Shown here: positions 226-479 of the stretch, piece by piece
Layout: every line of letters begins with the position of its first letter
How positions within the stretch are numbered: position 1 is the first letter of the stretch
Source of the DNA: Candidatus Cloacimonadota bacterium
GTDB taxonomy: Bacteria > Cloacimonadota > Cloacimonadia > Cloacimonadales > TCS61
Direction of reading: 5' to 3'
Length of the DNA: 53,265 nucleotides
NCBI GenBank assembly: GCA_018400535.1
Contig: JAGYMQ010000118.1
Coordinates: forward strand, 1-53,265
Notes under the pieces: model-generated
What the model was told of the DNA's origin: nothing
What the model saw: the letters and a program-made list of their open reading frames with translations, nothing else
The model's database searches: none
Made by a program: the position numbers and the translations under genes

Positions 226-479
226 GATTATTGACTATCAGGCGGCAGCCTGACGAGCTATGCTCGTTTGACTATTTGACTATTTATCCTGTTGAATAGA
301 CCTTTGGTCTTATGCGAAGCATATTCAACAGGATTTATACCGACGAAGTCGGGATCGAATTTTCAAAAACTTCGGAATGTTCAGCTTTGCTGATCTTCCG
401 AATGTTTGGAGTTAAAGTGAAAATAATAACATCCCGAAGATTTCCCTCTGGTTAAACATTCGGAAGTTAAAGGCATAAA
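226..479. other. Highly structured spacer between VR and avd (chain of mini-hairpins and a three-way junction)
   Basis: No gene is present. Inverted repeats read off directly are: TCAGGC/GCCTGA with GGCA loop (238-253); CGAGC/GCTCG with TAT loop (254-266); an 11-bp outer stem 286-296/324-334 enclosing AGACC-TTT-GGTCT (298-310) and TATGC-GAA-GCATA (311-323), a nearly perfect three-way junction; CCGAC-GAA-GTCGG (340-352); and TTCGGAA/TTCCGAA (371-377/396-402) enclosing TCAGC-TTT-GCTGA (381-393). TTGACTAT occurs three times (231-238, 268-275, 276-283) around the first two hairpins. TCCGAATGTTT (397-407) can also pair with 454-464. Hairpins just 3' of the VR are known to assist homing in the Bordetella phage DGR; the same role here is inference. 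Confidence 0.75.

Follow-up and report, generated by a model that had tools for sequence, protein, structure and literature searches.

Layout of the DGR cassette

The window analysed here, a stretch of 53,265 nucleotides from a Candidatus Cloacimonadota bacterium, starts within a DGR cassette on the plus strand that comprises the end of a VR (1-225), a spacer (226-479), avd (480-821), the template repeat (TR, approximately 1014-1220) and a gene for a reverse transcriptase (RT, 1236-2474). The 3′ end of this VR (VR1), the IMH region at 199-223, is identical over 25 nt to the TR end at 1196-1220, and the VR stop codon occupies positions 223-225. The RT belongs to the RVT_1 family (PF00078) and features YVDD in its translation, in agreement with the YxDD motif of DGRs. 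TR/VR pairs were located by a script treating TR adenines as wild, and VR1 differs from the TR at 26 of 190 positions, all 26 of which are TR adenines. The accessory protein typical of DGRs is encoded as well (bAvd, PF22296). Each of the two contigs with a VR breaks off within that VR or right at it (at window position 1 and, in contig C63, at 20053), so that additional VR copies may be missing from the assembly. The sole Rfam match is a drz-agam-2-2 ribozyme at 2834-2944 on the minus strand, which scores 23.4 versus a gathering score of 38 and lies inside a large ORF and outside the spacer.

The RT was not found in two other genomes of its genus. In the same phylum, 10 of 124 genomes contain a match at E ≤1e-40, and the nine besides the genome studied here are 33-37% identical, while identities of about 50-62% are found in records titled Bacteroidota, Patescibacteria and others. 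As the RT is closer to these other phyla than to its own, its distribution is likely accounted for by horizontal transfer.

The structured spacer between VR1 and avd

The first-pass annotation of this DNA had described a chain of hairpins following the VR stop codon, and we find this chain, including its three-way junction, exactly where it had been placed. It begins with a first linker unit, TTGACTAT (231-238), which is followed by hairpin 1 (238-253, TCAGGC-GGCA-GCCTGA) with a 6-bp stem and a C-G-closed loop of the GRNA/GNNA type and by hairpin 2 (253-267, ACGAGC-TAT-GCTCGT), also with a 6-bp stem. Further 8-nt tandem units of the linker, TTTGACTATTTGACTATTT, occupy 267-285 and lead to the three-way junction (286-334), in which a 12-bp stem (286-297/323-334) bears two triloop arms, AGACC-TTT-GGTCT (298-310) and TATGC-GAA-GCATA (311-323). 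A pre-avd hairpin with a C-G-closed GNA loop (340-352, CCGAC-GAA-GTCGG) and a REP-like palindrome (371-406, stem span 371-402, tip TCAGC-TTT-GCTGA at 381-393, half copy at 455-468) complete the array, which is a composite of a GRNA-type hairpin, triloop hairpins with a three-way junction, the 8-nt linker TTTGACTA and a dispersed palindrome.

All five triloops (TAT, TTT, GAA, GAA, TTT) are indeed closed by C-G. Membership in the class of extra-stable DNA mini-hairpins, which had been suggested for the array, applies to both GAA loops and to the GGCA loop but not to the TAT and TTT loops, which fall outside the published class; three of the mini-hairpins in 226-352 accordingly have a GNNA or GNA loop closed by C-G. 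As described in PMC4686876, GNA and GNNA loops on at least two G-C pairs form extraordinarily stable DNA mini-hairpins, for example d(GCGAAGC). Loop class and C-G closure are shared with the window, where the arm at 311-323 contains GCGAAGC, while the class is described there as DNA chemistry; a link between GNA/GNNA mini-hairpins and DGRs was not found in the open-licence literature searched.

Folding of 226-420 is far better than that of shuffled sequences both as DNA (-40.9 kcal/mol, z -8.3, no shuffle equally good) and as RNA (-72.2, z -6.7). The latter value, together with a T-rich stretch after the pre-avd hairpin in several relatives, would fit an RNA element, be it a terminator, an attenuator or an mRNA 3′-end stabilizer of the target gene, or a structure shaping avd translation. 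We nevertheless consider this improbable, since no intrinsic terminator (a GC-rich stem with a T-run immediately behind it) is present within 226-479 and the three-way junction is the energy minimum with DNA parameters, while the RNA minimum pairs the stretch 286-334 differently. Furthermore, the loops here and in the relatives treated below belong to the DNA mini-hairpin class, and GTA, GCA, GTCA, GTTA, GATA and GGCA are not RNA GNRA loops. A role of the array in the DNA of the homing target is the interpretation that we favor.

A second VR and dispersed repeats in the same genome

With a strong hairpin defined as one with a stem of at least 5, at least 3 G/C and a loop of 3-4, the 53-kb window contains 26, five of which reside within 238-393. 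A sample of 330,503 bases of the same genome (12.6%; the window and 14 further stretches) contains 149, equivalent to 0.07 per 160 nt, and clusters of at least three in 160 nt occur only twice in this sample, in the window's spacer and at 19322-19412 of C63, 3′ of a second VR (VR2). This VR2 is decayed, with 17 of its 46 mismatches falling at positions other than adenines; the hairpin cluster on its 3′ side lies more than 400 nt away from it and has loops other than those of the window array. A genome search for the linker pattern that tolerated at most two mismatches gave three matches, one in the window and an overlapping pair next to VR2 on C63. In the VR2 linker, four TTG units follow one another every 8 nt without interruption, while beside VR1 the unit at 231-238 is split from the remaining units by hairpins 1 and 2. 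Given that the VR2 linker is uninterrupted, hairpins 1 and 2 appear to have been inserted into the VR1 linker.

Between the decayed VR2 end and the VR2 linker, a GIY-YIG ORF is found (G000:C63:19600-19812; L031, L198), and a further GIY-YIG-like ORF is located behind the linker and hairpin of the Peregrinibacteria VR (L182). We considered the ORF behind VR2 as a candidate nickase and dropped it: the genome contains four PF01541 matches, three in small frames and one inside a 647-aa frame; the flanks of two were examined (C63 and C121), and only the match on C63 adjoins a VR. A VR relative with weak TR similarity is located inside a larger ORF at G000:C49:2741-2792.

When the spacer was compared with its own genome, the part at window 362-411 (query positions 139-188) had repeated matches on contigs C76, C146, C143 and C59, all of them variants of the TTCGGAATGTT palindrome. 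The palindrome at 371-406 is therefore a dispersed REP-like repeat with several intergenic copies and, in our reading, a bystander to the proposed homing target. The family around TTCCGAATGTT is represented in the window at 362-411 and 440-470 and on the same four contigs, with three copies in tandem on C59. It is conceivable that the whole spacer is no more than an accumulation of REP- or MITE-like palindromes which came to lie between VR and avd by chance, and MITE-like arrays near DGRs are mentioned for Thiohalocapsa in PMC10907252. This possibility strikes us as still less probable than an RNA element. The first-pass annotation had named hairpins scattered across the genome as an observation that would speak against a link to VRs, and this is what we see for the last palindrome alone: no dispersed copies of 238-352 were found in the genome (the next best partial match has an E value of 0.17), hairpin clusters are confined to VRs in the 330 kb sampled, and hairpins as well as loop bias recur after VRs in the three sets of DGRs described below, in line with the favored interpretation as part of a homing target.

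Hairpins and loop class after the VRs of other DGRs

Three non-redundant sets of post-VR flanks were compiled. The discovery set started from 99 entries, of which nine were removed by hand (second or misplaced VRs) while two were added by hand, resulting in 92 and, after removal of redundancy, 77 flanks. Set 2 stems from another RT clade (62 of 73 flanks kept) and was analyzed with hypotheses fixed before looking, and set 3 stems from 80 loci, three of them already in the earlier collection (43 of 73 flanks kept), and was analyzed according to a plan fixed beforehand. Sets 2 and 3 are not fully independent of each other, given that the query used for set 3 overlaps the clade from which set 2 was drawn, and thinning of the sets was by sequence and not by phylogeny.

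In the discovery set, hairpins occur at 1.30 per 220 nt versus 0.47 in 557 control 3′ flanks, and at 1.00 per 120 nt versus 0.27 in 246 intergenic-only 3′ flanks of other ORFs from the same loci; at least one hairpin is present in 58 of 77 flanks compared with 62 of 246 intergenic controls. A stricter "stop-dense" control, which was too small at 10 versus 42 flanks, gave 0.80 versus 0.31 hairpins with p 0.2. Loops of the types C-GNA-G and C-GNNA-G make up 19 of 52 tri- and tetraloops as opposed to 3 of 41 in controls, while the reverse-complement class is represented by 0 and 3, respectively. Even when the window is excluded, such a loop is found in 19 of 76 loci versus 8 of 557 controls. Set 2 exhibits the same features, with 0.73 versus 0.36 hairpins (p 8e-7), GNA/GNNA loops in 39 of 44 versus 0 of 33 cases (p 8e-17), none of the reverse-complement class and a pyrimidine fraction of 0.527 versus 0.483 (p 3e-4). 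So does set 3 with regard to hairpins (0.74 versus 0.21) and loops (26 of 31 versus 1 of 14 GNA/GNNA, reverse-complement class 0). The folding energy of sense versus antisense DNA was discarded as a discriminator, as sense DNA folds slightly better but does so in controls, too.

The number of post-VR hairpins varies widely among DGRs, and locus L116 has three consecutive ones in which every loop is C-GAA-G. Paired stem changes were seen only in another DGR subfamily (L119-L174, IMG/VR contigs), whose two-step post-VR hairpin is composed of an outer stem, an ACAA-like internal loop and a GCCGC tip; here, all nine of nine predicted outer pairs are changed on both sides in an alignment of 24 hand-picked rows. 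Alignment A1 was made without L059, whose reference contained a stop, and in alignment A4, which combined pre-avd hairpins with flanks, the stems were misaligned and no pair counts were drawn.

A tandem linker restricted to the target

The TTTGACTA repeat, which the first-pass annotation had not mentioned, is the part of the spacer that is common to DGRs of other phyla. Inspection of set 2 revealed repeats such as AATCTGAAATCTG between VR and hairpin. At least three YTG at a spacing of 7-9 nt are present in 58% of set 2, in 7.8% of set 1 (n = 77, the window's RT clade) and in 2.3% of the 557 controls. With a test fixed beforehand, viral DGRs proved to have a linker chain of at least three units in 31 of the 43 flanks of set 3, compared with 1 of 107 controls (p 3.6e-21). 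There is an excess at lags 7 and 8 in this set but none at lags 5, 6, 9 and 10. For the same 103 loci, a chain follows the VR in 66 cases and the TR in none. Most chains have four or five units (28 and 27 of 67), with spacings of 7 (134), 8 (81) and 9 nt (4). Since neither 7 nor 8 is divisible by three, a coding explanation of this period is unlikely.

The unit differs by lineage (TTTGACTA vs AATCTGA). Half of ten phage records contain a chain of at least three units, namely Vibrio ZX4290, Pseudoalteromonas ACA1, Bacillus BalMu-1, Faecalibacterium Lagaffe and Aeromonas phiARM81mr, and none was found in the other five, Bacteroides F2, Pseudomonas phPA-G, Burkholderia Magia, Bacteroides BS-TP1 and BPP-1. 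In BalMu-1 and phiARM81mr, the linker is accompanied by a GNNA hairpin. The phage flanks were taken to start at the annotated VR for BPP-1 and otherwise, with the VR unchecked, at the annotated gene end next to avd or, for Magia, at the end of the lectin gene. Neither of two words proved useful as a marker. The octad RACYHTTT, defined after looking, occurs in 9 of 77 discovery flanks versus 10 of 557 controls, and we rejected it as a general linker word given this modest, post hoc enrichment. The exact linker 20-mer TTTGACTATTTGACTATTTG was found on seven IMG/VR contigs, none with a match to DGR RT or Avd in the fetched loci, and is not diagnostic by itself.

An earlier report of a tandem linker between VR and hairpin was not found in the open-licence literature searched. 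Loop class and linker alike characterize the flanks of VRs, as opposed to those of the TR and to ordinary 3′ flanks.

A proposed 3′ half of the homing target

Guo 2011 (PMC3240598) describes a target hairpin/cruciform for BPP-1 whose stem acts by structure and whose loop acts by sequence, mutants of which lose homing. Hairpins of this type have a sense-strand GRNA loop on a GC-rich stem of 7-10 bp, lie 4-34 bp from the VR and are needed for efficient homing. The short spacer of BPP-1 tolerates change without loss (PMC3240598). The window shares with BPP-1 an inverted repeat just 3′ of the VR at a distance within this range (14 nt between 223 and 238 for hairpin 1) and a sense-strand GRNA loop (GGCA at 244-247). 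Where BPP-1 has a single hairpin, the window has several together with a three-way junction; it further differs in its triloops, in the 8-nt tandem linker and in the stem of hairpin 1, which at 6 bp with four G-C pairs is shorter than the published ones; BPP-1 itself has a GAAA loop, a spacer of 4 bp and no linker chain. Trinucleotide loops of the GNA class are also shared with the nanoarchaeal DUSEL4 DGR, where they are GRA, but PMC4372165 places those hairpins inside the target gene, while the window's follow the stop codon, several in a row. A one-strand loop rule, C-GNA-G/C-GNNA-G, accommodates the GRNA loops of phages as well as the GRA loops of nanoarchaea and favors DNA over RNA, on the strand that pairs with the cDNA.

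With a probability of roughly 0.7, we interpret 226-352 as the 3′ half of the DGR homing target, which, judged from its sequence, would combine the IMH, a tandem 8-nt linker (TTGACTAT/TTTGACTA) split by two hairpins, and DNA mini-hairpins on the coding strand. The target-recognition reading offered in the first-pass annotation gains from the excess of post-VR hairpins over controls in three DGR sets, the preference for mini-hairpin loops on the coding strand and the restriction of clusters to two VR loci in the sampled genome; the stem of hairpin 1, shorter than the published range, does not fit it. The rarity of the YTG form of the chain in the window's own RT clade also counts against our interpretation, as do the IMG/VR contigs that have the exact 20-mer but no match to DGR RT or Avd in the fetched loci, the tolerance of the BPP-1 spacer to change, the decay of VR2 and the distance and differing loops of its hairpin cluster. 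Least probable of all, in our opinion, is a neutral origin of linker and hairpins from slippage or repair where DGR activity keeps breaking DNA, for which the lineage-specific units (TTTGACTA, AATCTGA) and the highly variable hairpin number could be cited but against which strand-specific loops (39 to 0 and 26 to 0 versus the reverse complement) and the paired stem changes in another subfamily, both arguing for selection, as well as the loss of homing in BPP-1 mutants (PMC3240598) have to be set.

How the cDNA of DGRs finds and enters the target is incompletely understood according to PMC12875486, which also reports that the orientation of the target has an effect and puts forward an open-state model for homing that involves the lagging strand. 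A repeat that joins VR and hairpin in the target and is absent after the TR bears on this question. If 226-352 is part of the homing target, the coding strand could become single-stranded as lagging-strand template or by cruciform extrusion under supercoiling, the hairpins would hold it open, the linker would serve as a repeated docking site for the complex of RT, Avd, RNA and cDNA, and antisense cDNA might then anneal at the IMH. Avd is a pentamer. We tentatively suggest, as an idea that may well turn out to be wrong, that in many phages and bacteria the target-only tandem linker (some 4-5 units, each of 7-8 nt, resembling AATCTGA in phages and with TTTGACTA as the unit in the window's lineage) constitutes a second, hitherto undescribed DGR target signal besides IMH and hairpin. 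It would be read as single-stranded DNA of the coding strand by a ring protein, each subunit of which takes one unit; judging from the number of units, the pentameric Avd would be the natural candidate, and the GNA/GNNA mini-hairpin would act as a stopper keeping the strand open.

Retrieval of remote VRs

The linker also helps to locate remote VRs. A search of 14 DGR-bearing genomes or records with the 12-base word TTTGACTATTTG returned 21 matches and led to VR-like ends in three other DGR genomes, several of which were confirmed against the TR. The word follows VR-like ends in six of eight cases in a Culturomica MAG (G125), in six of seven in a Haliscomenobacteraceae MAG (G128) and in the single case in a Peregrinibacteria MAG (G126); the remaining 8 of the 21 matches have no obvious VR-like end. 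In G128, three copies differ from the TR mostly by adenine changes (31 of 39, 18 of 23 and 16 of 25), a fourth coincides with the RT locus and another two are similar to the VR gene. A homologous stem in the window and locus L057 was considered and rejected, as a shared 16-nt linker block aligned while the remainder of the spacer aligned poorly. In G125, three copies align with the TR over 181-188 nt, with adenines accounting for 21 of 21, 28 of 28 and 25 of 37 of the mismatches; a further two lie at a contig edge, where they match the TR end, and the remaining one was beyond checking. The order of elements in G125, a GC hairpin followed by the linker TTTGACTATTTGATTGATTTGACTATTT and a hairpin with the loop GTA or GCA, is identical to that in the window.
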